Assembly: GCA_032622095.1 (NCBI GenBank)
Contig: CP136064.1
Span: 141,067,954 to 141,131,953, forward strand
DNA length: 64,000 nucleotides
Reading direction: 5' to 3'
From: Siphonodentalium dalli
Lineage: Eukaryota; Mollusca; Scaphopoda; Gadilida; Siphonodentaliidae
Made by a program: the position numbers and the translations under genes. Numbering within the stretch: position 1 is the first letter of the stretch; each line of letters starts with the position of its first letter. The notes under the pieces are model-generated. The model searched no databases, was not told where the DNA came from, and saw only the letters and a program-made list of their open reading frames with translations. Below, in pieces: positions 14,940-61,126 of this stretch.

Positions 14940-14991
14940 TACAGGTTTATGGGAGGCCAATTTCACATTTAATATTGAATTGAGCTTAAGC

Positions 14992-15236
14992 GCAAACAAT
15001 TGCGCTTAAGCGCAATTCATGGTTATATGTAACTAAACACCCCTGGTGAATAAATAGGTTTATCCATAACTCACCCTTCACCTGATCACATATCACCTAT
15101 ATTGTTTCCATTGGTTTGGATGGGTAGGGAGCTGGTCTAAATTACTTTATCAAAATGGCTACATATAACCATGAATTGCGCTTAAGCGCAATTCTGCGCT
15201 TAAGTGCAATGATTGCGCTTAAGCGCAATCATTAAG
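14992..15236. repeat. Cluster of ATTGCGCTTAAGCGCAAT palindromes
   Basis: Perfect or near-perfect copies of this 18-bp palindrome occur near 15000, 15176 and 15210, with degenerate versions adjoining. More variants lie near 16542-16608 at the other end of the same transposon. Subterminal repeats of this kind often bind transposase; that role is inferred. Confidence 0.85.
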
Positions 15237-16276: not shown

Positions 16277-16648
16277 GCCTATAACTTCTTGTGAACCATG
16301 TTGCTCAGCCCCATATACACATGTATTAACATTCGCTCTGCATTTCGAGTAACAAGGCTAATTGAAGACAAAATGTCATCAACATCATTGTTGTTCAATG
16401 ACATGATTGTTGCACACACTAACAGTAACACAGTTGACTGTTGAGTACTAGGCTAATTAAAACAGTGTAAAATTAGCCCCATGCTCCTCTTGCCTTGCTA
16501 GGTGATGCCCATAGTTTATGGGTAGGTTAGATAGTTGTTGATTGCGCTTAAGCGTAAATGCCCTATTTGTCCTTAAGTACAATATGTGGTATTTGCGCTT
16601 AAGCTCAATTCAATATTAAATGTGAATTTGGCCTCCCCCATACAGGTT

Positions 16649-32665: not shown

Positions 32666-33410
32666 TACTCGGGGACGTGGAATTTACACTGATGTATTTT
32701 AAGTACTAATTTTGCACAAAATACGACCAAACAAATTGCCCCAGTTGTGTTCCGAGGCCCTATGGATACTCAGCTTTCTGTGGAAATTAAATTTAGCTCG
32801 ATCTGCAAGAGTTTGTTTTCGACGAGTATGGTCAGTCCTATTTTGCACTTTTCCAGAGAATGTCCCTCCTACCAATAATTTCACGACTACCTTTTTGATT
32901 AATAATTTATTAAATAAAGGTAGTCAATCAGGCAGACCTGTCTTTGTTGTGTTACGACCCTGCGGGATAAAAAAATTTAAATTATAAATTTTTTTGTAAT
33001 CAACAGGAAAAATATCCCATTTACACAAACGTTATGGTTAGATCTCACTTTATAGCTGTGGCCATATTAGGACTGGCAAAAATATATTTATAATGCACTT
33101 TTTGGAAAATCACCATCTTTGAAATAACATATTTCTCAATATAAATACCAATTTCAAGTTGTCGGATTCCATGTAGTTTAACACATCTGACAACAACCGA
33201 AAACGCGAAGATGCCTTCCACAATATTATTTTTGTTGGCAATAAAAGCTATCTTGGAAGATTTACATGGGAAATCTTCATAATATCAAACAAATATACCA
33301 CATAATTTGAAAGATAACTATATTATGATCCCAGATTCCCACAGATACTACTACTGTTGGACTTTTTTTGTGCTAAAAATATGGTGCCAAACAGATATTA
33401 ACAATAAACA
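32666..33410. other. No gene seen; AT-rich spacer before the Gypsy-like remnant
   Basis: The short frame 32712-32987 has no recognisable features. Near 33420 protease/RT-linker-like residues can be read in broken frames, so the retroelement probably starts about here. Confidence 0.4.
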
Positions 33411-33460
33411 AATGTTACGATAGCAGACCTGGATGTCGACAAAAGCCCTATCGATGCCCA

Positions 33461-34020
33461 TTGCAAAAGCGTGAAATTCTTAGTGATAAAATAGATGAAT
33501 TATTGCAAGCAAAAATAATTTCACCAGCTCCAGCAAGTGAGTGGTCATTCCCTTGTATGATTCTGAAAAAAACAGATAATTCATATCGATTTATAGGCAG
33601 ACTAAATGCTATAACAAAACCAACATTTTTAACAATTGATCAGATAGAGGATATTTTGGCAGAAATGAAAGGAGTTAAATATAGAACAGTTCTCAATTGT
33701 TTTTCTGCATATAATTGCATTCTGATACATCACGCGGATCAAAGTAAAGCAACCATAACTTGTTTTAGGGGGAATTTTTCATTTAACTGCACATGCTTTG
33801 GCACCATACGGAGTTCTAGCACCTTTCTTCAACTCATGAATCGAGTGTTGGAGGGGGTTAAAGGATGTCACGCCTATGTCAACGATTTAATTTTGTACTC
33901 AGTTGATATGTCCCATTTAAGGCTTCTTCAAGAGGTATTTGATCGCCTCAGGAAGTTTAATGTAAAATTAAAGTTAAAGAAATGTTCATTCTTTAAAACG
34001 GAATGTTCATTTTGGGGCAC
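33461..34020 (+). pseudogene. Gypsy-like reverse transcriptase fragment
   Basis: The open frame reads through RT palm blocks: IDELLQAKIISPA, WSFPCMILKKTDNSYRF and GCHAYVNDLILYS. The last is the catalytic YVDD region with the second position changed to Asn, and the LNCFSAYNCI stretch lacks the usual first Asp, so the enzyme would be inactive. The frame leaves homology near 34010, where a frameshift to the 34003-34434 frame occurs. In live relatives this domain copies genomic RNA into DNA. Confidence 0.8.
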
Positions 34021-34434
34021 ATCATTGATCAACATGGTGTTAGACCAGATGCCAATAAAGTAAAAGCAATTCAAACACCGCCAACAAATGTGAAACAAGT
34101 GAGAAGTGTCATAGGATCATTCTCATGGTTCTGTAAATTTATTCCTAAATTCAGTGAAATTTGTGGACCTTTGGTAGAATTGACAAAGAAAAACACAAAA
34201 TTTGAATGGACAGACCAATGTGATAAGGCATTTAAGAAATTGAAAACTGATTTAACAGAAGCGACATATCTCGCATATCCAGATAAAAACAAACCATTTA
34301 TAATGTATACTGATGACAGCGCCCGTGCTATCGCGGCAGTAATTACACAGTCACGTGACCCAGGTGACCCGTGTATATCAAGATCTAATACGGAGAATCC
34401 TATACATCTATACATTTTATTTCAGAACGGCTGA
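34003..34434 (+). pseudogene. Gypsy-like RT end and RNase H start
   Basis: It continues the RT domain in a shifted frame: FILGHIIDQHGVRPD, then the RT connection IGSFSWFCKFIPKFSEI and the RNase H entry PFIMYTDDSARAIAAVITQ, which holds the first catalytic Asp. It ends at 34434. Broken remains (SWSTLERESFAIYWAIKKLQ) extend to about 34530 in another frame. Confidence 0.8.
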
Positions 34435-34711
34435 ATAAATCTCAAATTCGTTCATGGAGTACATTGGAGCGGGAAAGTTTTGCCATTTATTGGGCAATAA
34501 AGAAATTACAATTTTACATTAAGTGGATCCCCATTAATTATAAAGACTGATCACAAAGTATTAACGAATATGCTATCTGCTCCCATGGATAAACGTCGCA
34601 CGGTGGGCTGTATGTATATCTGCATATAAGCCTCAGATAATTCACATACCCGGCAAAGATAATATATTTGCCGATTATGTATCACGACCTGCAGATGATG
34701 TAAATAATGAT
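34435..34711 (+). pseudogene. Decayed RNase H remainder
   Basis: The RNase H remainder can be read in pieces with frame changes and stops. No single open frame survives between 34434 and the integrase frame at 34712. Confidence 0.5.
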
Positions 34712-35499
34712 ATGTCGGAAGTACCAGAGCAATCAGATGTAACAGGACCCGAACCTGAAGTACCAATGAATGTTGACATTATTGATACATCAAAATTAAA
34801 CACAAAACAATATGCAAATTGTCGTTTAGAAAAAACTCCACCTGAACTGCAAGAAACAATAGAGTTAGAGGGTTTTGACATGCAGCATGAACAAAATCGT
34901 GATACAGAAGCAATAGAGATTATTCAACAATTAAATTCCACCAAACCACCCAAACAAATAGCAGATAAATATATAGTAATTAAAGATGTACTTTACTTCA
35001 TCAGTCACCATGATGAAGATCCAGATATATGCCTATTTATTCCCGCAAATATTCGACAAGCTGTACTCAAGCAATATCATGACTTTATAGCAGGACATTT
35101 TTCCACAGTTAAGACTTTTGCAACAGCAAAACTTAAATATTATTGGCCAAATATGTATAGAGATATACATAATTATTGTCAAGCTTGCATGATTTGTAAA
35201 ATGAGGAATTTATCACAACAAAAAGCTCCAATACAAGAAATGGACCGACCTCCATTTCCTTTTGCAACAATAAGCACTGATATACAAGGACCGTTTGAAA
35301 CAACAATGTCCAATAACAAATATATTTTAACTTTTATTTGTTGTCTGACTAAATATGTCGAAGCATTCGCGATTCCCGATAAACGAGCAGAAACAGTGGT
35401 AATGATATTTTTAGATGAGGTAATTAGCAGACATTCATGCTGTTTAAATCTGGTTAGCGATAATGGGACCGTATTCAAAAACAAGCACATGGATCAGGT
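34712..35499 (+). pseudogene. Gypsy-like integrase, zinc-binding domain and first part of catalytic core
   Basis: The frame includes an HHCC zinc-binding domain (H near 35080, H a few residues on in AGHFS, C-x2-C in ACMICK near 35185), then the core with STDIQGP (first catalytic Asp) and VSDNGTVF (second Asp). It is cut at GGATCAGGT 35491-35499 by an inserted DNA element. The third catalytic residue is on the far side. Confidence 0.85.
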
Positions 35500-36863
35500 T
35501 AGTCCAAGTCTTCTTGTACTAAAACCAGCTAAGATATTGGGATGGCGATGCTGGCGTTTAGTCCAAGACCGCCCTATATGCTCGCTTATGACACGGCTTA
35601 AGCGTTAGTGACCCGCTCAAATAAAACCACAATTATATGAAATAAAATATCACAATTGCGACAATAAACGGATATTTTCCGCAGAAGACATGCTATTTTA
35701 TCTGAAACCCACATCAGTTGTGAATTTAAAACGGTAATTTAATGCGAAAAGAGACATTTACCTCAATGTTTACAATTTTTTAAAAGTATGCGAACTCGGT
35801 TGACCTCGCGAACTGTGTTCGGCATTTTCCGTTGAAAATATTCCGTAGATTTTGGACAACAACGCAAATTACGAAGAATTCTCCATTGTAATCGTAATTA
35901 TGTGTGTCAATAAATAAAATAATAAATAGATTAATTAAACATTGAAGATATAAATGTAATACATTAAATAAATTACGGGGAATTACAACCCTCTCAAAGT
36001 TTAAAACAGTGTAAACACAACGAGTATTAGAATAAATAATATGGTGCTACATTTCCCACATTTGGTGGACTTCGGCGAAATTAAGATATATACTAAGCGA
36101 ACAGAGCAATATACTGCTCTTGTTAAGCACACAAAAAATCAAACAAAATTTGTATAAATTTTTAACCTTAAGTTTGAAAAGTCCCACTAAAACGGAAGAA
36201 CTATATTTCGAAACTGTGTGATTCGGTTCTCCGATTATTTTATCAACACAAAAGTCAAAATGCACATGGATGAAAATCACACGGATGGAAAGTCAGACAC
36301 AAGAGTTCTAATTTGCTCCAATTTTGACAAGTTGCTTGCGAAAATTGTCAACAAAACTACCGTTCTGATCCTCCATTATGTCATTAAGTTTTTAGTGCGG
36401 GAATTGTTCTGAAAGCACATAGAAAACTGGACTTTCGGGCGATCGGTTTTCGTCTTTTTGTTCGGAAAACCCGCGCTATATATAGAAACGGAAAGTAGAA
36501 TTCCCAGAACAAACAGCGGATTATGCCGAACTTATTCGGACCACTTCGGCTTTCGGTTAAAACGTAAACAAACAGAGAAACAAATCGATGTTTATGGCAA
36601 TCAACCGGAATATTCTATGTGTAATTTAACATTAAAGTTAGATTATTATACACCATTGTGACCATAAGATGTAAGCCTTTCCGATGTATATAGCATCATG
36701 TATTGATTTGCTAGGTAAATCGAGTAAAATACACCACAGATTCCCGCCACAGATCGTGGGCGTAAGTCGTGTGGTAGGATTGGTATGCAAGCGGGCTTGG
36801 ACTAAACGCCAGCATCGCCATCCCAATATCTTAGCTGGTTTTAGTACAAGAAGACTTGGACTA
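35500..36863. mobile_element. Non-autonomous DNA transposon with perfect 68-bp TIRs and 9-bp TSD
   Basis: Positions 35500-35567 and 36796-36863 are exact reverse complements over 68 bp. GGATCAGGT is present on both sides (35491-35499 and 36864-36872). Removing element plus one duplication (1373 nt) joins the two integrase frames in phase. Each TIR both begins and ends with TAGTCCAAG. Long TIRs and a 9-bp duplication point to a Mutator-like element; an 8-bp reading is also possible because of the boundary base. No transposase ORF is seen in the 1.2-kb interior. Confidence 0.9.
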
Positions 36864-37857
36864 GGATCAGGTTTGCAAAGAACTAAATATACATCATATT
36901 TATAGTTCACCGTATCACCCGGCCTCGAATGGTTCCGTTGAGAGATCACATGCTGTTTTAAATTCTGTTATATCCAAATTGGTGTTACAAAACACACACA
37001 CTTGGGATATGTATTTTTTACAAGCATTGTTTGCAATGCATGTTCATGTAAATGATAAAACAAAATTCAGTCCGTTTTATTTATTATATCACCGGGAACC
37101 CACATTAAGTCTCAATAATATTCTAAAACCCAGATTGAAATATGTAGGTGAGGACTTTACATCCTTAGCTTTACAAGAACATAGAAATTTTCGTTTGGTT
37201 CTTTCGCGTTTAAGATATCAAATTAGAACACAGAAAAAGAATGAGAACAGAAAAGAAGTTTCATTTGAAATAGGAGACCCAGTTTATTACAAATCTGGAT
37301 GAACAGGTAAACATGGCAAAGTCATTGGAATATAATCGAAAAATATAGCAAGGTATCATTCTTAATTAAAGATCAGTTAAGTGGTCGAACAGTCCGTTGT
37401 CATGCCGATAATATTCGTAAAGCCGACAGTGTTTGGAAAAATTCCACCAAAAGACACGATACGTCAATTGCGATGACAGCGTTTCATTGTTAATACTTCT
37501 GATGTAGACCCAGAACAGCCTGCATCATCAACTTGGTCGTCTAGTGACGAAATTCCACTTGCTCAATTAATGCGACGCAAACAATTGCGAAGACAAAATT
37601 CTTCAAGCGATGACGAAATACCGCGACTTGAATGGGCAGATCGATTGCGTGCAAATGAGCAAAACAATAATAATTCAGACGCATTCGCGTCCGCAAATGA
37701 AGAAATTGAAAATGTTGCGTCTGACAACATAAACCAATATGAACAAACAACTGTTTCTGAAATGGATATCGATTTAAATTCGCGTACATATGATGAACCT
37801 ACACAATCATGCGTGAATGATATCACTCGTGTTGTAAACACATTGGAAACAATATAG
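36864..37857 (+). pseudogene. Gypsy-like integrase, remaining core and C-terminal domain
   Basis: The core resumes with SSPYHPASNGSVERSHAVL, providing the catalytic Glu (near 36938), then FSPFYLLYHREPT and FEIGDPVYYKSG. A stop after KSG breaks the frame at 37300-37302. Shifted, the C-terminal domain continues as WNIIEKYSKVSFLI and RCHADNIRKADSVW, like the end of Gypsy integrases. A charged tail follows (37570-37857: MRRKQLRRQ, SSSDDEIPRLEW, then an Asn/Asp/Glu-rich stretch). The identical region is present in the second duplicate. Confidence 0.75.
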
Positions 37858-39093
37858 ACTTGTGTCCGACAGAATTAATCTGAGGAATCCATTCAAGTCG
37901 TACTTACCAATATGAATGTGTAACAGTAAAGGTATCCTTAAATAACTATATATTGTAGTCCTGATGGAATAACAAACAACGTATAACACAATCCTGAATG
38001 TTTAACTTCCGTATAACAAAAGAATAGAACTGATTAAAAATGAACTCAATAACACAAACATGATTTAAATCATAGTCTTAATATTCGTAGTCTACATGTA
38101 TATATATAACACAAATTCATCCGACCACGTGCCACCGCACGTTTACATAAAGTGCCGGCAACAAATGCTAAATTTTCTGTACACAAAGCATGAGGTTCAA
38201 TTTGATTTCTGTATCTGGACAACGGATCCAGGTATATTGTGTTAAGCCATTGACATGATAAATTTGCACATACAATTGTACTGACCAGCATGTGGTATGC
38301 ATAGACTCCCAAAATCAGCTAACATGCATGTTATGTGGATTATTGTATAGGTAAGCACCGCGATGAGTTGCCAACTGCCTATACTATACAGTACAATATT
38401 CAATTGTATCTGTAACAATATTAATAGTTGTCATTAATCATCATTAGCATCCATTGTGGGCACACGAAGCATTACCCAGATGGATTGAATATAGGAATAG
38501 CGGAATTCGAGCGGTATGCGCAACCCTCGTCTTCCTGGTTTGACTAGTGATATGCAGGGATATACACCCTGATGTTGGTAATGGAATGCTAAGAATAATT
38601 AAATCAGAATGGTCGTAGATGGCAAATAACAAACAACAATAATATTATTTTATTCAATTATGTGCATATAATATAGATATCGGAGAAATACATGTATGAA
38701 GTATTGCATTATCACGTAATTTAATAATTCATAAATAGCTGTGAGAATTTTAACGAAATCGCAATCATCTATTGATTGGTTCTAATTTTACTGGAATGGT
38801 GGACGATATTCACCCGATTTAAACAAAAATTTCACACCAAAATAATTACACGATTGGTTTAAATATTATAAATGTAGTCGAGGCAGGAATGTTTGGTTAT
38901 CGCACAGCAATTGTTTTCACATTTATTTGTGGGATTTTATGGCGTGATATGTATATCGCGGCCCCTTAAGGTCATGATTCAAGACATAAATTTTTTAAAT
39001 CCTAAGATCACATTTTATTGATCATAAACCCAAACCCCCCATAATGTGCATATCCCTCATTTCTTGCATGACCATTTTCTTTACTTATTATAG
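37858..39093. other. Spacer between pol tail and small ORF; no gene
   Basis: AT-rich with only short frames. The end of this stretch, TTTTCTTTACTTATTATAG (to 39093), has the form of a splice acceptor immediately before ATG 39096. Second copy at 43961-45196. Confidence 0.4.
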
Positions 39094-39095
39094 AA

Positions 39096-39443
39096 ATGCT
39101 CTACGAACACGTTCAAACTTATGAAAATGCAAATTGGACTGCAGAGTCAATGATTTCGTTTCATGACTCGTACTTTGGGCATGTTTTGGTTTCAAGATGC
39201 TTATTAGCTACCATGGGTTTATTGTGTTCTTTTTACAAACACATTATTCAGCTTTCGTGTCATTTATGTCGAACAATTTGGGTTCGCCAAACACGATCAA
39301 TGGTTGGTACTGTAAGTCAATCTAATGACGTCACACGGGATGGACCATCCAATATGCACCGTTCTGACATACCAAACACGCAGACCCGACCAGACATTGG
39401 TGTTTCAACCACATCTAGCGACACCGCTGCTAATCTTTCATGA
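39096..39443 (+). CDS. Small ORF with a hydrophobic segment, possible third ORF of the Gypsy-like element
   Basis: A 115-codon frame from an ATG that directly follows a splice-acceptor-like sequence. Residues ~30-55 (VLVSRCLLATMGLLCSFYKH) could span a membrane, with Cys residues after it and a Ser/Thr-rich tail. Its position between pol and the probable 3' LTR is where some Gypsy-like elements carry an additional, spliced ORF. There is no homology I can recognise, so it may be only a remnant or chance. Present unchanged at 45199-45546. Confidence 0.3.
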   Translation: MLYEHVQTYENANWTAESMISFHDSYFGHVLVSRCLLATMGLLCSFYKHIIQLSCHLCRTIWVRQTRSMVGTVSQSNDVTRDGPSNMHRSDIPNTQTRPDIGVSTTSSDTAANLS

Positions 39444-40334
39444 CACCGTTCATGACACTGTCCTCACGATTTTATCGGACATAGCTATTCCACCGACTGT
39501 CCAACATGAACACTCGTTTCCTCGCTGCGTTTCCTCGTTCGACGTCTCGTATATAGTCGTCATCTCACCGCTGCCATCGACATAGCTTCTTACCTGATTA
39601 CCTGAATAACGCATATGCTGCCAGATCGTTTCAAGAGATATATCGCTGATGTTGATGTTACTACATTTGATCGCAACTGTTCCATGCTGATACATGTGCA
39701 TCGCTCATTACCCGTTACGTCATCGATTCAACGTCTCTTGATGCCAACGACCAGGTACCAACGATATCTGAAGCTGTGTTTGACAATATATATATACAAC
39801 AAACATTTGCGTATTCCACTCATCATACCGTTCTATAATTATGTACAATGATCTGCTGTGTATACCTGCTTTCGTCAATGGCTCCAATAACTGCTGACTT
39901 TCCCGCTGAGCCCCTATCTCGTTTACTACACACTCTCACGCCGCACGGACAATAACATTCATCTTCCTTAATTGCTGCTGTCAATAATAACTGTACTTCA
40001 TGTGTACTTTCTCTCTTTCGCACACTGACGTTACATGCTGTTTTGACATGTATCTCACGTTAGATTCGCCTGCCGTACTTCATTCTCAGCCTCTTGGATA
40101 ATTAACTGTTAACTGATAATCCAGTGACCTAGTGACATACTGTTTACCAGACTCGCCATGGATAAATAACTATAGTTTCGTTTGCTGTTGAGTGTTTGTG
40201 TATGAATATCCATGTCTTGATATTTTTTTTAGGTTCGCGACTCGCGATTATAATCCTCGATCCAACTATCTTCTGTACACTCGGATTTAATCACATTTTC
40301 AGTTCCCACTACTATATATAGTCTTGGTAACTCT

Positions 40335-40700
40335 GAAGGAGGGGACTCTGTCCGATAGTACAGAAGATAGTACATTTATTGTTATATGTTTCCCCAAATC
40401 GAGGTAAACTTCCTTTCCCCAGTGATTGTAATTGCTAGGGTTAATTATATATATAGATAAGCACAATACATAGAAGACAAATTATATAGTGTAGAAACAC
40501 ACACGCATAATTAACAAGATCACATTCTTGAGTGGTTATGACTGTATAAGTTAGGAAACGAGTATCATTCTATAATAAACAATATAATGCTACACGTCAT
40601 AGCCATTTAAGGGTATCATGGTATCTCAGACCTTATTTGGACGCATGATACACCAGACGTTGGAATAACTACCCGTGCTCTGAAGCGGGAGCTTCACTTA
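40335..40700 (+). repeat. Possible polypurine tract and 3' LTR
   Basis: GAAGGAGGGGA (40335-40345) is a polypurine tract; TGTCCGATAG begins at 40349, where an LTR would start with TG. Downstream are TATATATAGA (near 40448) and ATAATAAACAATA (near 40573), which could serve as promoter and polyadenylation signals. ACTATCTTCTGTAC just upstream mirrors GTACAGAAGATAGT just inside the start. There is no upstream partner LTR in the window, so this stays tentative. The equal copy at 46438 is due to the tandem duplication, not an LTR pair. Confidence 0.3.
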
Positions 40701-42060
40701 TCCGACAACCTTGCTGCTACCAACACCTCGGTTCTTCCGCCTAATGTGTAATCTGCTTATCGAGAGAGACTTATACATATATAAAGTTATGAAGATCTAT
40801 GAACTAGTTATTGTTTAATGTTCCCGAAACACGGCCAATCAACCATTCAACTCTAGACGTATCGGGACACATGCATATGCCAGTGTGTACAAGGAACTTC
40901 AAAGTTGGGGCCAATTTGAATGCTGAGGTGTGCTACCTCAGTCAATGTGTGGCCTATGGTACCATTTTCAGTGTGGTGTGGGACTTTAATATATTTCAAT
41001 GCAATTGAGGGGTGTCTGAGGAACATTTACACCCTGTGCAATGTGTCTGAGGCGCATGCGAGATATCCTGCCAGTGGAGGTGTGGCCTACAAGTAGGTCC
41101 TGAGGTGTACGAACAATTATTTAAGTGAGGTTTGAATTAATATCATACAAGTTATGTTATTATAAGGTCATAGAAAAGCCCTATTATGGTGTTCGTCTTG
41201 GGCCTGTTGATATGTCAATGTTGTGCTCCGAGGAAGATGTGCCACCACAATCTAAACTGAGAGAATATATAATTACAAGAGAGCTGCATAGTTGAGAGCC
41301 TAGGAGGCATTTGTTTGTCCACATTGACAATACTTATCATATTATTGTGCCACATTAACTGTTTACTTGCAATATACATGGACAGCCTTAACACGAGTAT
41401 AAAGAGTAAGCATTAATGTACTTCTTAACTGTTCGGGGAAAAAATAAAAAAATATTACCAAAAAAAAAAAAATCCCTACCTACCTACCTGGAATTTTTTT
41501 GGCACTTTAATAGGAAACAAATAATTTTTTCTTTTTGGCCTAACCATTGTGGAGAATATGAAAATTAATGTAGGGTCCCTGAATATGCTAAATTTGAGCT
41601 GTTGTACACTGGGGAACAACTACACCTGTAAATTCTTAATACATTTCTCCAATAAAAGTGGGCTGCAAGGTGTGCGGATGGTTTATATATTTGAAATCTG
41701 AGATGGCTGCCTTATAAAGTTTGGTTACAATCAGATGATCATATGAATTATCAGTATAACTTGGCAAAATATTTCTGGAAACATTCTAAGCGAGAAGTTA
41801 TTTAAAAAGAGCCACATTAAAGATTTAAATGATATAGTTGATAAATTGTCACAAAGACTTGTATATGAATTACGATTAAAATTGAAAGAGTACCACTTGT
41901 CGTAATTTCAACATGTCTGTTTTGAAGTTTAAAGTCATATATTCTATGTGTGTGGGTGCAGACACCAAAGATTTTAGTGAATTTTGTTGTACTACTATAG
42001 GGGACTAAAGCTTACTAATTTTCTCATTTTGTATTATAGAGTTTATATTATATAAATATT
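40701..42060. other. No gene seen
   Basis: AT-rich sequence with a poly-A run (41458-41472) followed by CCTACCTACCTACC. No recognisable coding region. Copy at 46804-48163. Confidence 0.5.
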
Positions 42061-42062
42061 GA

Positions 42063-42145
42063 ACGGCTTGGAGGTGACTATGCCAAAATAGTGGTCCGAG
42101 GGGAGGAATAGTACCACTATTTTGGCATAGGCACCGACAAGCCGT
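42063..42145. repeat. Hairpin with 18-bp perfect stem plus outer stem (two copies)
   Basis: CTATGCCAAAATAGTGGT (42078-42095) and its exact mirror ACCACTATTTTGGCATAG (42113-42130) are separated by 17 bases. ACGGCTTG and CAAGCCGT extend the stem outside. The second duplicate has it at 48166-48248. It looks like the core of a small foldback element. Confidence 0.85.
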
Positions 42146-42874
42146 GCAATATTTATTATATTTTATCGAACGTTTTTCATTCTGTTCCAGGACCCATAAA
42201 TGTAAAAATATTCACAATCATCTATATTCCCTATTCATCGCAGAACGATTTAAAAAATTTCAGTTCAAAGTTTTGTTGCTTCTTTTGTTTTTTTTTTGCT
42301 TGTCAAATTATCTTCAATAAATTGCCAGGCTTCTAATTGGGCAAATCTTAAATTTTCTTCCTCAGGACTTATTGTTGCCATTTTGACTAGCAGACGTTGT
42401 TGTTGTTTTGTTAAACAATGACATCAGTTCAAAACAATACTTTTTTTTTAATGAATATTCAGTAGAGCGAACTAAGGAAATAGACAAAAATATCGAAGCA
42501 ATATTATGATCAGCAGAGAAAGGAACATGATAAATCGCCACATCACATAAAACATCACAAATAACATAAAGTAGTTGTCGATTACAAAGACATTTCGGTT
42601 AAAAATATGTTGAACTTTTGCAGGCGAGGTGGAGATGACTTTCAAATTACCTCCCCGGAATAGTGGGCATGCTAAAATTAGATTTCTGGATTTACCAAGC
42701 GATAGTGGGTGTGCTAAATTTAGGAGGCCCACTATGGTTTCGTGGACGACACTATCAATAATAGCGAATGTCATGCAACCAATCACAAGCGTGGATAAGG
42801 CTTAGATAATCACGTGAGATAAACTATAACTAAATAATAGACTGCCATGATGTTATACATGGTGCAACTAGATT

Positions 42875-43405
42875 TTGACACAGAAAGTTGTAGCGGGATC
42901 TGTCAACAGTTACAATTGGTACACAGGGTTGTATGAACTTCATAATCACAGGTGCACAGGTTCCCAGGATCAGGTTTGCAAAGAACTAAATATACATCAT
43001 ATTTATAGTTCACCGTATCACCCGGCCTCGAATGGTTCCGTTGAGAGATCACATGCTGTTTTAAATTCTGTTATATCCAAATTGGTGTTACAAAACACAC
43101 ACACTTGGGATATGTATTTTTTACAAGCATTGTTTGCAATGCATGTTCATGTAAATGATAACACAAAATTCAGTCCGTTTTATTTATTATATCACCGGGA
43201 ACCCACATTAAGTCTCAATAATATTCTAAAACCCAGATTGAAATATGTAGGTGAGGACTTTACATCCTTAGCTTTACAAGAACATAGAAATTTTCGTTTG
43301 GTTCTTTCGCGTTTAAGATATCAAATTAGAACACAGAAAAAGAATGAGAACAGAAAAGAAGTTTCATTTGAAATAGGAGACCCAGTTTATTACAAATCTG
43401 GATGA
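42875..43405 (+). pseudogene. Chimeric frame across the duplication junction plus integrase fragment, copy 2
   Basis: The frame starts (TTG, no ATG) in the end sequence of unit 1, crosses the junction at 42966/42967 and continues as integrase (DQVCKELNIHHIYSSPYHPA...NGSVER). The first ~30 codons are not integrase. It shows the integrase segment in its uninterrupted local form, without the TIR element on its left. Confidence 0.8.
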
Positions 43406-46400
43406 ACAGGTAAACATGGCAAAGTCATTGGAATATAATCGAAAAATATAGCAAGGTATCATTCTTAATTAAAGATCAGTTAAGTGGTCGAACAGTCCGT
43501 TGTCATGCCGATAATATTCGTAAAGCCGACAGTGTTTGGAAAAATTCCACCAAAAGACACGATACGTCAATTGCGATGACAGCGTTTCATTGTTAATACT
43601 TCTGATGTAGACCCAGAACAGCCTGCATCATCAACTTGGTCGTCTAGTGACGAAATTCCACTTGCTCAATTAATGCGACGCAAACAATTGCGAAGACAAA
43701 ATTCTTCAAGCGATGACGAAATACCGCGACTTGAATGGGCAGATCGATTGCGTGCAAATGAGCAAAACAATAATAATTCAGACGCATTCGCGTCCGCAAA
43801 TGAAGAAATTGAAAATGTTGCGTCTGACAACATAAACCAATATGAACAAACAACTGTTTCTGAAATGGATATCGATTTAAATTCGCGTACATATGATGAA
43901 CCTACACAATCATGCGTGAATGATATCACTCGTGTTGTAAACACATTGGAAACAATATAGACTTGTGTCCGACAGAATTAATCTGAGGAATCCATTCAAG
44001 TCGTACTTACCAATATGAATGTGTAACAGTAAAGGTATCCTTAAATAACTATATATTGTAGTCCTGATGGAATAACAAACAACGTATAACACAATCCTGA
44101 ATGTTTAACTTCCGTATAACAAAAGAATAGAACTGATTAAAAATGAACTCAATAACACAAACATGATTTAAATCATAGTCTTAATATTCGTAGTCTACAT
44201 GTATATATATAACACAAATTCATCCGACCACGTGCCACCGCACGTTTACATAAAGTGCCGGCAACAAATGCTAAATTTTCTGTACACAAAGCATGAGGTT
44301 CAATTTGATTTCTGTATCTGGACAACGGATCCAGGTATATTGTGTTAAGCCATTGACATGATAAATTTGCACATACAATTGTACTGACCAGCATGTGGTA
44401 TGCATAGACTCCCAAAATCAGCTAACATGCATGTTATGTGGATTATTGTATAGGTAAGCACCGCGATGAGTTGCCAACTGCCTATACTATACAGTACAAT
44501 ATTCAATTGTATCTGTAACAATATTAATAGTTGTCATTAATCATCATTAGCATCCATTGTGGGCACACGAAGCATTACCCAGATGGATTGAATATAGGAA
44601 TAGCGGAATTCGAGCGGTATGCGCAACCCTCGTCTTCCTGGTTTGACTAGTGATATGCAGGGATATACACCCTGATGTTGGTAATGGAATGCTAAGAATA
44701 ATTAAATCAGAATGGTCGTAGATGGCAAATAACAAACAACAATAATATTATTTTATTCAATTATGTGCATATAATATAGATATCGGAGAAATACATGTAT
44801 GAAGTATTGCATTATCACGTAATTTAATAATTCATAAATAGCTGTGAGAATTTTAACGAAATCGCAATCATCTATTGATTGGTTCTAATTTTACTGGAAT
44901 GGTGGACGATATTCACCCGATTTAAACAAAAATTTCACACCAAAATAATTACACGATTGGTTTAAATATTATAAATGTAGTCGAGGCAGGAATGTTTGGT
45001 TATCGCACAGCAATTGTTTTCACATTTATTTGTGGGATTTTATGGCGTGATATGTATATCGCGGCCCCTTAAGGTCATGATTCAAGACATAAATTTTTTA
45101 AATCCTAAGATCACATTTTATTGATCATAAACCCAAACCCCCCATAATGTGCATATCCCTCATTTCTTGCATGACCATTTTCTTTACTTATTATAGAAAT
45201 GCTCTACGAACACGTTCAAACTTATGAAAATGCAAATTGGACTGCAGAGTCAATGATTTCGTTTCATGACTCGTACTTTGGGCATGTTTTGGTTTCAAGA
45301 TGCTTATTAGCTACCATGGGTTTATTGTGTTCTTTTTACAAACACATTATTCAGCTTTCGTGTCATTTATGTCGAACAATTTGGGTTCGCCAAACACGAT
45401 CAATGGTTGGTACTGTAAGTCAATCTAATGACGTCACACGGGATGGACCATCCAATATGCACCGTTCTGACATACCAAACACGCAGACCCGACCAGACAT
45501 TGGTGTTTCAACCACATCTAGCGACACCGCTGCTAATCTTTCATGACACCGTTCATGACACTGTCCTCACGATTTTATCGGACATAGCTATTCCACCGAC
45601 TGTCCAACATGAACACTCGTTTCCTCGCTGCGTTTCCTCGTTCGACGTCTCGTATATAGTCGTCATCTCACCGCTGCCATCGACATAGCTTCTTACCTGA
45701 TTACCTGAATAACGCATATGCTGCCAGATCGTTTCAAGAGATATATCGCTGATGTTGATGTTACTACATTTGATCGCAACTGTTCCATGCTGATACATGT
45801 GCATCGCTCATTACCCGTTACGTCATCGATTCAACGTCTCTTGATGCCAACGACCAGGTACCAACGATATCTGAAGCTGTGTTTGACAATATATATATAC
45901 AACAAACATTTGCGTATTCCACTCATCATACCGTTCTATAATTATGTACAATGATCTGCTGTGTATACCTGCTTTCGTCAATGGCTCCAATAACTGCTGA
46001 CTTTCCCGCTGAGCCCCTATCTCGTTTACTACACACTCTCACGCCGCACGGACAATAACATTCATCTTCCTTAATTGCTGCTGTCAATAATAACTGTACT
46101 TCATGTGTACTTTCTCTCTTTCGCACACTGACGTTACATGCTGTTTTGACATGTATCTCACGTTAGATTCGCCTGCCGTACTTCATTCTCAGCCTCTTGG
46201 ATAATTAACTGTTAACTGATAATCCAGTGACCTAGTGACATACTGTTTACCAGACTCGCCATGGATAAATAACTATAGTTTCGTTTGCTGTTGAGTGTTT
46301 GTGTATGAATATCCATGTCTTGATATTTTTTTTAGGTTCGCGACTCGCGATTATAATCCTCGATCCAACTATCTTCTGTACACTCGGATTTAATCACATT

Positions 46401-49068
46401 TTCAGTTCCCACTACTATATATAGTCTTGGTAACTCTGAAGGAGGGGACTCTGTCCGATAGTACAGAAGATAGTACATTTATTGTTATATGTTTCCCCAA
46501 ATCGAGGTAAACTTCCTTTCCCCAGTGATTGTAATTGCTAGGGTTAATTATATATATAGATAAGCACAATACATAGAAGACAAATTATATAGTGTAGAAA
46601 CACACACGCATAATTAACAAGATCACATTCTTGAGTGGTTATGACTGTATAAGTTAGGAAACGAGTATCATTCTATAATAAACAATATAATGCTACACGT
46701 CATAGCCATTTAAGGGTATCATGGTATCTCAGACCTTATTTGGACGCATGATACACCAGACGTTGGAATAACTACCCGTGCTCTGAAGCGGGAGCTTCAC
46801 TTATCCGACAACCTTGCTGCTACCAACACCTCGGTTCTTCCGCCTAATGTGTAATCTGCTTATCGAGAGAGACTTATACATATATAAAGTTATGAAGATC
46901 TATGAACTAGTTATTGTTTAATGTTCCCGAAACACGGCCAATCAACCATTCAACTCTAGACGTATCGGGACACATGCATATGCCAGTGTGTACAAGGAAC
47001 TTCAAAGTTGGGGCCAATTTGAATGCTGAGGTGTGCTACCTCAGTCAATGTGTGGCCTATGGTACCATTTTCAGTGTGGTGTGGGACTTTAATATATTTC
47101 AATGCAATTGAGGGGTGTCTGAGGAACATTTACACCCTGTGCAATGTGTCTGAGGCGCATGCGAGATATCCTGCCAGTGGAGGTGTGGCCTACAAGTAGG
47201 TCCTGAGGTGTACGAACAATTATTTAAGTGAGGTTTGAATTAATATCATACAAGTTATGTTATTATAAGGTCATAGAAAAGCCCTATTATGGTGTTCGTC
47301 TTGGGCCTGTTGATATGTCAATGTTGTGCTCCGAGGAAGATGTGCCACCACAATCTAAACTGAGAGAATATATAATTACAAGAGAGCTGCATAGTTGAGA
47401 GCCTAGGAGGCATTTGTTTGTCCACATTGACAATACTTATCATATTATTGTGCCACATTAACTGTTTACTTGCAATATACATGGACAGCCTTAACACGAG
47501 TATAAAGAGTAAGCATTAATGTACTTCTTAACTGTTCGGGGAAAAAATAAAAAAATATTACCAAAAAAAAAAAAATCCCTACCTACCTACCTGGAATTTT
47601 TTTGGCACTTTAATAGGAAACAAATAATTTTTTCTTTTTGGCCTAACCATTGTGGAGAATATGAAAATTAATGTAGGGTCCCTGAATATGCTAAATTTGA
47701 GCTGTTGTACACTGGGGAACAACTACACCTGTAAATTCTTAATACATTTCTCCAATAAAAGTGGGCTGCAAGGTGTGCGGATGGTTTATATATTTGAAAT
47801 CTGAGATGGCTGCCTTATAAAGTTTGGTTACAATCAGATGATCATATGAATTATCAGTATAACTTGGCAAAATATTTCTGGAAACATTCTAAGCGAGAAG
47901 TTATTTAAAAAGAGCCACATTAAAGATTTAAATGATATAGTTGATAAATTGTCACAAAGACTTGTATATGAATTACGATTAAAATTGAAAGAGTACCACT
48001 TGTCGTAATTTCAACATGTCTGTTTTGAAGTTTAAAGTCATATATTCTATGTGTGTGGGTGCAGACACCAAAGATTTTAGTGAATTTTGTTGTACTACTA
48101 TAGGGGACTAAAGCTTACTAATTTTCTCATTTTGTATTATAGAGTTTATATTATATAAATATTGAACGGCTTGGAGGTGACTATGCCAAAATAGTGGTCC
48201 GAGGGGAGGAATAGTACCACTATTTTGGCATAGGCACCGACAAGCCGTGCAATATTTATTATATTTTATCGAACGTTTTTCATTCTGTTCCAGGACCCAT
48301 AAATGTAAAAATATTCACAATCATCTATATTCCCTATTCATCGCAGAACGATTTAAAAAATTTCAGTTCAAAGTTTTGTTGCTTCTTTTGTTTTTTTTTT
48401 GCTTGTCAAATTATCTTCAATAAATTGCCAGGCTTCTAATTGGGCAAATCTTAAATTTTCTTCCTCAGGACTTATTGTTGCCATTTTGACTAGCAGACGT
48501 TGTTGTTGTTTTGTTAAACAATGACATCAGTTCAAAACAATACTTTTTTTTTAATGAATATTCAGTAGAGCGAACTAAGGAAATAGACAAAAATATCGAA
48601 GCAATATTATGATCAGCAGAGAAAGGAACATGATAAATCGCCACATCACATAAAACATCACAAATAACATAAAGTAGTTGTCGATTACAAAGACATTTCG
48701 GTTAAAAATATGTTGAACTTTTGCAGGCGAGGTGGAGATGACTTTCAAATTACCTCCCCGGAATAGTGGGCATGCTAAAATTAGATTTCTGGATTTACCA
48801 AGCGATAGTGGGTGTGCTAAATTTAGGAGGCCCACTATGGTTTCGTGGACGACACTATCAATAATAGCGAATGTCATGCAACCAATCACAAGCGTGGATA
48901 AGGCTTAGATAATCACGTGAGATAAACTATAACTAAATAATAGACTGCCATGATGTTATACATGGTGCAACTAGATTTTGACACAGAAAGTTGTAGCGGG
49001 ATCTGTCAACAGTTACAATTGGTACACAGGGTTGTATGAACTTCATAATCACAGGTGCACAGGTTCCC
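42967..49068 (+). repeat. Tandem duplication, unit 2
   Basis: Near-identical to 36864-42966. It includes the integrase tail (43082-43960), small ORF (45199-45546), possible LTR (46438 onward) and hairpin (48166-48248). After 49068 the sequence continues ...CCCATGGTACTAAAT, the presumed original right flank, whereas unit 1 passes straight into unit 2. Confidence 0.95.
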
Positions 49069-49536
49069 ATGGTACTAAATATATGTACCAAGTTCCAAAA
49101 ATAGGAATACAAGCTCCATGGATGAACGTATTGTAAGGCACACAGACGGACAAGCCGACTCCAAAAGAATTGTATAAAATGTATCCAATGAAACTCAAAC
49201 AATGCTCTTTGTAAGTATTGTACACATCAGTGATGTTGGTATGGGATACAGACTGTACAGCAATCAAAGTTTGATACAGATATCTCTACAGTAAGTTTCA
49301 GTGGAACACATACAGTAGATCACAGACAGATAGAAGAAGAGAAAGTATGGTGAAAAAGCTGTTTTGTCACAAGAATATTTTTCCTGTCTGATCGCATTTA
49401 GTCTACTAACCATATGACTTCTTAGACTTTCTATGGTTAAAACTGCTACCTCCAACCAACACATGAATGGTACCCCTGAAAACAATATATATGGGTTAAT
49501 AACATTAAAGATATAAGGCACACACCAATTAAGGGG
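49069..49536. other. No gene seen
   Basis: Single-copy-looking spacer to the right of the duplication. Only short minus-strand frames, none convincing. Confidence 0.5.
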
Positions 49537-49930
49537 GCCCTCAGTGGCGCAATTGGTAAGATGCATGACATATTAGACCAACTTTCCATCCAGCAATGGC
49601 GAGTCTGGTTCAAATTCTGGTAAGTGCAGATTTCTGATCCACGTGCCGGGAAAGTAATCTGATTTGTGTATCTGGGTAAGCTTGTCAGCTGCTTTCCAGG
49701 AGTTATTTCCCGATGATTTTTTATGAAATAGAGACTGAAACAAGAGCTGGGCTGTCACCCAATGCATAACCCGAATGCTAGACATATTTCGAACTTTGTG
49801 TATCTGGGCAAGCTTGTCAGCTGCTTTCCAGGAGTTATTTCCCGATGATTTTTTATGAAATAGAGACTGAAACAAGAGCTGGGCTGTCACCCGATGCATA
49901 ACCCGAATGCTAGACATATTTCGAACTTTG
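49537..49930 (+). mobile_element. tRNA-like SINE head followed by a 132-bp tandem duplication
   Basis: TGGCGCAATTGG (49544-49555) is a good A box and GGTTCAAATTC (49607-49617) a good B box, 52 bases apart as in long-variable-arm tRNAs. The surrounding sequence does not close a clean acceptor stem, so a SINE or tRNA pseudogene is more likely than a gene. The body from 49666 is repeated once with period 132 (49666-49797 and 49798-49929), beginning GTGTATCTGGG(T/C)AAGC. Confidence 0.6.
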
Positions 49931-53056: not shown

Positions 53057-53449
53057 GTAGAGAAATTTGCAAACGTTGGCATGACCGATTCCAGTTTTTT
53101 TTTGCCAAAAAAAGCTGTCAGTGAGTCACTTTTTTTCTTCTGATGTCACATTGTCTCATTGTCACTGAGATGACCAAATTCCAATGTGCTCTGTGTGCCC
53201 AGTCTACCCCTCCACCAAAATTAGTTTTGTCCAGTATCACAAGCATTTGGACAAGACGTCAAGATGATTGAAATTGAATCTGTGATCAGTCCTCTTGGCG
53301 AGTTTTGCCAACAATGAAACATGCGAGAGATCAATCACTGAATCAGCTGGACGACAGCCATCACTCTCCGATTGAGAATTATCACTTGTAAATAAATGTA
53401 AGTTGTATCTGAATTTAGCGCACGTTTCCATCAGTTATAATCTGTAACA
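53057..53449 (-). repeat. Inverted repeat pair, left arm (~390 bp)
   Basis: The segment is the reverse complement of 59366-59678 joined to 61053-61126, with roughly 95% or better agreement by eye. It includes a 64-codon minus-strand frame (METCAKFRYN...), which differs from its partner at six bases, five of them changing amino acids. That pattern argues against a conserved protein. The element type is unknown. Confidence 0.85.
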
Positions 53450-59245: not shown

Positions 59246-59365
59246 ATTCGGCAAATAATTACGCAAATAGGCGAAGTTTGTTTCCAATTCCACCGGTGAT
59301 CCTACAATGACACGATGACATTGAGAAATTAAATGTCAACAGTTATTAAGTCACACTGGACGCAT

Positions 59366-61126
59366 ACAGATTATAACCGATGGAAACTTGCACTAAATTC
59401 AGATACAACTTACATTTATTTACAAGTGATAATTCTCAATCGGAGAGTGATGGCTGTCGTCAAGCTGATTCAGTGATTGATCTCTCGCATGTTTCATTGT
59501 TGGCAAGACTCGCCAAGAGGGCTGATCACAGATTCAATTTCAATCATCTTGACGTCTTGTACAAATGCTTGTGATACCGGACAAAACTAATTTTGGTGGA
59601 GGGGTAGACTGGGCACACAGAGCACATTGGAATTTGGTCATCTCAGAGACAATGAGACAATGTGACATCAGAAGAAAACGAGAGGCCGATCACGATCGGC
59701 AGATGTTAACCCATCCCTTGGCGATAAAAATTTAATATGATCGGATAAATGAGAGTTTTGGTGTTGAATTATAGAGTATACTGTTATGTACTATTATAGA
59801 CAAATGTACATAACACAAATTATTGGAATTTATGGGTCACTGGCATTTATATAAGAGAATGCACTGGTACAGGATCTGTAATGCTAAACCGCCACAGCCA
59901 GCAAGTCCGTGGGTTAAATGTGTAGGTGTGCCCTGGACATGGAATACTTGGGTTAAGAGAGTCCAATTTAAGTTTACAATAATAATGTGTCCTAGTATAC
60001 AGATAAGCAACCTCACCACTGACCCATTAATATCAATTATATAGCACAGCTGTCAAAAAATCACAGGAATTGTTTATGTTGAACACTGACCTCTATTAAA
60101 CCAATAACAATTATAATGATATCAGACCATCTGAAGATATAACTCTGCAGCACACAGATGTCCAAGTCTACTGTTAATATCATGTGATGTTTATTGTTGA
60201 ATCTTTATTTTAAATTAGATACCACAGGCTTCTTTATCAGATTATTTGCACATTGGCATAAGAAAAATCAGAAAATAATATAGCTTTATCTGAAAGTTTA
60301 TCAATAGCTACTAGTAAGTAGTCCAAATGCAATTGGTGAATTGGATTTAATGTTGCTCCAAACAGATTTACCAGTACATAACACAAGATTTTGGACCGAT
60401 TTAATCAAATTTGGTGTGGTGATTCGGGGTACCCTTGGCAGAGTTATAATGGTTATAATTGTTTTTAATTATTTAAAAAAATTAAAGGGACACATTGGAA
60501 ATCTTTTTATCAACTTGTATCATAATCATCAATATCTAAATGAAAACAAATGACAATGTCAATGACATTTTTTTTATTATTATTATAAAAGTTAAAAAAA
60601 AAAAAAATTTAAATCGATTTTTTTCTTCAATTTATTTTTCGAAAAAGGGTCATAACTCCTTTAAAATAAATCGGATCAAACCCATATTCGAACTAGATCT
60701 GTATTTTGGGCTGTGAAACTCACATACCAAATTTGGTTCCAATCAGATAAAAAATGTTTGAGTTATGGCAGAATGTGTGAATTTTAAGTAGAAAAAGGGC
60801 CATAACTCTGTAACAAAAACTCGGATCAAACCCAAATTCGAACTCGATCTGTATTTTGGGTTGATATACCCATATACAAAATTTGCTTCTGATTGGATAG
60901 AAAATGTTTGAGTTATCGCATTACACGTGAAGTGTCTACGGACGGACAGACGGACGGACGGACGGACAGACGGACGGACGGACGGACGAACGACGAGTGG
61001 TCAATCCGGACAACGACACTATGTTTACCATACATGGTATGGGTAAACATAAAAAGTGACTCACTGACAGCTTTTTTTGGCAAAAAAAAACTGGAATCGG
61101 TCATGCCAACATTTGCAAATTTCTCT
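59366..61126 (+). repeat. Inverted repeat pair, right arm, interrupted by the Helentron-like element
   Basis: 59366-59678 and 61053-61126 together correspond to the left arm 53057-53449 in reverse. The interruption falls in an A-run (GAAGAAAA | AAAAAGTGACTC). The left arm shows the uninterrupted sequence with seven A/T residues, so the occupied site has two extra A residues. Confidence 0.85.
59679..61052 (+). mobile_element. Helentron/pearl-like non-autonomous element, copy 2
   Basis: It begins CGAGAGGCCGATCACGATCGG, exactly as copy 1 at 6992, and ends GGTATGGGTAAACAT(AA). It holds two core-repeat units (about 60640-60900) and an ACGG microsatellite (60940-60990). Near 59850-59885 it includes sequence related to the MITE at 17447-17665. 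It is about 570 bp shorter than copy 1. Confidence 0.8.

Follow-up and report, generated by a model that had tools for sequence, protein, structure and literature searches.

How does a stretch of DNA come to be repeated in tandem so that the repeat begins, to the base, at the edge of a transposon, with no transposon lying between its two copies? The question is raised by a stretch of 64,000 bases (the window; C4:141067954-141131953; 37% G+C, zero N) from a 2.23-Gb assembly of nine contigs. A real duplication here would be a very recent natural case of tandem duplication begun, to the base, by a DNA transposon, lacking the middle element from which the mechanism is usually recognised, and surveys that require an element between the copies would overlook such events.

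The duplication and its left edge

Self-BLAST and base-by-base comparison across the window show a direct tandem repeat with a unit of 6103 bp, preceded by a transposon with terminal inverted repeats (TIR element):

36864..42966, + strand: copy 1 of the 6103-bp unit (self-BLAST, base comparison)
42967..49069, + strand: copy 2 of the unit, one mismatch against copy 1 (self-BLAST, base comparison)
42958..42975, + strand: junction AGGTTCCCA/GGATCAGGT, no element between the copies
35500..36863, no strand: copy of the TIR transposon, 1364 bp, without a long reading frame (genome search, inverted-repeat comparison)
35491..35499, + strand: left 9-bp target duplication GGATCAGGT (site empty in six relatives of the retroelement)
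36864..36872, + strand: right 9-bp target duplication GGATCAGGT, the first bases of copy 1

The left edge of the unit coincides with the start of GGATCAGGT, the 9-bp target duplication on the right of the TIR element, and the same GGATCAGGT also lies immediately left of the element. The initial annotation had put the start of the unit at this right target duplication, which proved exact to the base, and had noted a single base shared with the element's end. We find the same: the only match left of the unit is an A in both places (36863 and 42966), and further out the likeness stops abruptly on both sides. A single mismatch separates the two copies (A at 37059 vs C at 43162), and with one difference in 6103 bp the duplication, if real, is recent, as had been proposed. 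The start at 36864 and the period of 6103 bp also stood, whereas the end had been set at 49068, one base short of the true end at 49069.

Other repeats lie elsewhere in the window. A 132-bp unit occurs twice in tandem with 98.5% identity at 49663-49930, ~600 bp past the far breakpoint; at 53133-53446 and 59365-59678 two stretches of 314 bp, 97% identical and ~6 kb apart, lie in opposite orientation; and short palindromic repeats around TTGCGCTTAAGCGCAA cluster at 14951-15233 and 16542-16637.

The TIR element is itself nested in an older sequence:

33377..40870, + strand: frame-broken LTR retroelement (reverse transcriptase, RNase H and integrase regions), interrupted by the transposon and from 36864 part of the unit

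The Pfam domains RVT_1, RT_RNaseH_2 and Integrase_H2C2 score above their cut-offs in this retroelement, rve falls below its own, and the TIR element sits in the integrase region. Six related retroelement copies read through the insertion site without the TIR element; one of them (L022, 94.6% alike over 224 aligned bases) reads ACATGGATCAGGTTTGC exactly, and the five others differ by 1-4 bases. These relatives show that the TIR element inserted into an unduplicated site. At the position of the one difference between the copies, 37059, two relatives carry C (L019, L023) and two carry A (L020, L021), which leaves its polarity ambiguous; the aligned pieces of L004 and L022 stop short of the position. 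The unit spans the insertion point, the retroelement's 3' end (family homology stops near 40870) and a further ~2.1 kb. With a start inside the integrase region and an end that far past the 3' end, a retroelement origin of the unit is out.

The empty site also bears on whether the duplication is a product of the assembly. A transposon-free haplotype could have been clipped at GGATCAGGT and the piece joined behind the transposon-bearing haplotype, in which case the alignment of the haplotypes would end exactly at GGATCAGGT (T against A to its left), as the observed edge does, although the far end has no such explanation. When 200 bp around the junction were searched against the whole genome, only one of the best 40 of 60 candidate matches spanned it, the window's own; on the other side, there is no N at the junction, and two haplotypes of an outbred animal would usually differ at more than one base in 6103, depending on its heterozygosity. 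We regard an artefact of this kind as unlikely.

The transposon family and its target sites

The TIR element measures 1364 bp, with terminal inverted repeats of 73 bp that differ by one mismatch, and its longest stop-to-stop frame lying fully within it is 88 amino acids; it is presumably non-autonomous. Among the best 40 of 3402 first-look candidates in the genome, the window's copy included, all 40 show 99 or 100% identity, which marks the family as young, abundant and recently active. The window's copy has one private change among these 40, a 1-bp deletion, and the 29-base word around it occurs once in the genome. Set against the one difference between the copies of the unit, this change only hints that the element is older than the duplication, because about 1 in 5 chance outcomes look alike by length alone (hand count). 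Elsewhere, at L059 (G000:C6:169983686-169985330), a copy of the transposon has apparently inserted into an older copy of itself, 91-92% identical, and its two outer pieces have 9 query bases in common, as expected of a target duplication.

Mutator-like (MULE) transposons typically make target duplications of ~9 bp. The TIR family does likewise: in 39 further copies the target duplication is an exact 9 bp in 30, 8 bp in three and 10 bp in two, with imperfect duplications or cut alignments in the other four. Among MULE-domain matches in the genome (best 150 of 813 candidates scored; seven loci fetched), neither the family's own transposase nor its excision was found, and the end word TAGTCCAAG or its complement occurred in none of the seven loci fetched for six of the matches (L062-L067, L070). 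Some MULE-domain matches are regularly spaced, three on C1 (G000:C1:214712637-214722793) lying ~5.08 kb apart and four on C7 (G000:C7:136090858-136194560) forming two pairs ~15.0 kb apart. Their appearance is that of tandem arrays, either of complete elements or of some larger unit.

From the 30 exact 9-bp sites, with the nine other copies and the window's own site left out of the model, the family has a palindromic target, CAn/N9/nTG. The window's TIR site, CAT/GGATCAGGT/TTG, scores 8.14, which 0.056% of window positions match or exceed. We scored the far breakpoint of the duplication with the same model:

49040..49094, + strand: conserved core of a dispersed repeat spanning the far breakpoint (relatives compared)
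49058..49072, + strand: far breakpoint as a candidate target of the same family, CAC/AGGTTCCCA/TGG (score 2.44)

The far breakpoint, 49069/49070, falls within this dispersed repeat. Nine of its relatives, fetched from 39 matches outside the window, all cross the breakpoint uninterrupted, so the bases after 49069 are the normal continuation, and neither a copy nor a piece of the TIR element was found at this breakpoint or at the junction. Read as a target ending exactly at 49069, the breakpoint scores 2.44, a value that 2.57% of 63,976 window positions attain and that lies above those of 8 of the 30 real sites (leave-one-out). It has three of the four motif letters, with one missing; three or four letters are found in 24 of the 30 real sites and in 5.5% of window positions. 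The other register, with a target beginning at the breakpoint, scores poorly, and as two registers were possible beforehand a fair figure for the match is ~5%. The match is suggestive, not proof, of a target of the same TIR family. If this reading is right, both sides of the junction, AGGTTCCCA/GGATCAGGT, may be edges cut by the same transposase. A hairpin at the far breakpoint (TGGTAC, a 9-base loop, GTACCA) was considered as a cause and set aside as weak; it has -4.0 and -5.4 kcal/mol in short stretches and is absent from the best fold of a longer stretch.

Target quality and shared bases also enter into the case for coincidence, that is, an ordinary duplication by end-joining or microhomology, with a transposon inserted independently at the left edge of the duplication. 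CATGG is common to both breakpoints of the empty allele, one base out of register, which offers another possible cause and counts against a transposase; at least 5 bases shared within one base are found in 2.0% of random pairs, and the TIR site is, as scored above, a very good family target. Joining through CATGG would, however, leave a T that the junction lacks, and a base-exact meeting of independent events comes to ~5 in 10,000 by hand count (~6 in 12,206, from three duplication boundaries and two target-duplication edges, given an element in the neighbourhood). The element's 1-bp deletion, weighed against the one copy difference, only hints that the insertion came first. Exact-edge coincidences will occur somewhere genome-wide, among many transposons and tandem duplications; at this locus we judge one improbable, more so than an assembly artefact.

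For a base rate of flank duplication, the right flanks of 10 of the 11 long-flank family copies were searched together (L012 was left out as repetitive). Two flanks, which are high-copy repeats, supplied 31 of the best 40 of 4426 candidates; because repeats fill these matches, no rate is obtainable. The search also returned two paralogous sites without the TIR element (L068, L069), one of them with an unrelated insertion close by. This site, L069 (G000:C1:256526000-256530000), is a transposon-free paralogue of the L014 site, and 20 bp away it holds an insertion of ~450 bp whose ends, CAGCCCTGGGAATTA and TAATTCCCAGGGCTG (as printed: AATTCCCAGGGCTG), are inverted, with direct repeats AACGAC on either side.

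How the duplication may have begun

Because the unit starts base-exact at the right target duplication, we favour the view that the duplication was initiated by the transposon's own cutting machinery, with alternative transposition as the favoured route, and give it about an even chance of being correct. It gains support from the uninterrupted site in the relatives together with a far breakpoint that resembles a family target, and from a TIR family that is young, abundant and recently active. The layout, shared in part with the maize tandem direct duplications compared below, speaks for it as well. Aberrant transposition from one cut element end had been suggested initially; a transposase cut at the right end is indeed the best-supported cause, whereas the route and an excision are steps that we infer.

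If the assembly is true to the genome, the cuts, the join and their order would be as follows. Transposase would cut the right end of the TIR element on one chromatid, freeing the flank that starts with GGATCAGGT. The freed flank would join a left arm (left flank, element and segment) broken 6.1 kb downstream at a target-like site, and the product would be left flank, element and segment, followed directly by segment and the rest. The likeliest route would be alternative transposition with reversed ends or a hybrid element, or else unequal exchange involving a second element inserted at the far site. In each case an element would come to lie between the copies, and this middle copy would later have left cleanly; or a middle copy was never made, the reaction having aborted and the two cut ends been joined.

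Several observations count against a transposase. Alternative transposition leaves an element between the copies, and the junction has none; 42966/42967 shows no excision footprint; the window holds no second copy of the TIR element; the far-site match lacks a motif letter; and neither excision by the family nor its transposase was found among the MULE-domain matches scored. With neither element nor footprint at the junction, the middle element would have been lost without trace, or the reaction would have aborted.

A single cut-and-paste element might also duplicate its own flank in one step, through out-of-register gap repair once one sister has lost the TIR element by excision. The right end of the break (GGATCAGG...) would invade the unbroken sister 6.1 kb downstream of the correct position, be extended through the segment, the element and the left flank in turn, and then anneal to the left end, so that the element would be restored and a tandem copy made with no element at its junction. 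This fits nearly as well: one event would account for the element being retained between its two target duplications, for the GGATCAGGT at the junction and for the absent middle element, and a loss step becomes unnecessary. It does not, however, predict a target-like far site; the junction homology of one base or none, as in 46% of random pairs, bears no mark of invasion; and we found no description of such an event in the literature searched. We consider both this origin of the duplication and the general capacity of a lone element to act in this way doubtful, somewhat less so than an assembly artefact. If it were true, some tandem duplications beside transposons that pass as ordinary would be unrecognised excision scars.

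Returning to a start by transposase cutting, if the duplication is real, an abundant young TIR family with a defined target motif would make such events countable.

Comparison with known transposon-induced duplications

The duplication is most likely a variant of known transposon-induced duplication. Hybrid element insertion of the P element gives rearrangements of the flank that start at the element's end, and the rearrangement here starts in the same place. By our own derivation, that reaction would leave an element between the copies and empty the original site, the reverse of what we see here. This reaction of the Drosophila P element is named in PMC3744419, where unequal homologous exchange between transposon copies is also described as leaving three copies in all, one of them at the junction. 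With a second copy in the far site of one homologue, unequal exchange could have duplicated this interval too, but it leaves a junction element, and here only the first element is present.

The closest comparison is with the tandem direct duplications that reversed-ends transposition produces in maize. In the account of them given in PMC3744419, the repeat starts precisely at the transposon, matching target duplications flank the first element, the copies have a second element between them and the distal end has none; three natural cases are given among 7611 hAT insertions. Related products are reported in PMC4270019. The maize middle element has one matching and one non-matching flank, and its somatic excision joins the repeats via a short footprint; for that study's own cases, a missing footprint is an argument against later excision (PMC3744419). 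Unlike in maize, the copies here have no element between them, the target duplication is 9 bp rather than 8 and belongs to a different family, and the maize reaction needs two nearby elements whereas the window holds one. As in maize, the repeat here starts precisely at the transposon's end, the first element is flanked by matching target duplications, and the distal end carries no element, with two copies only.
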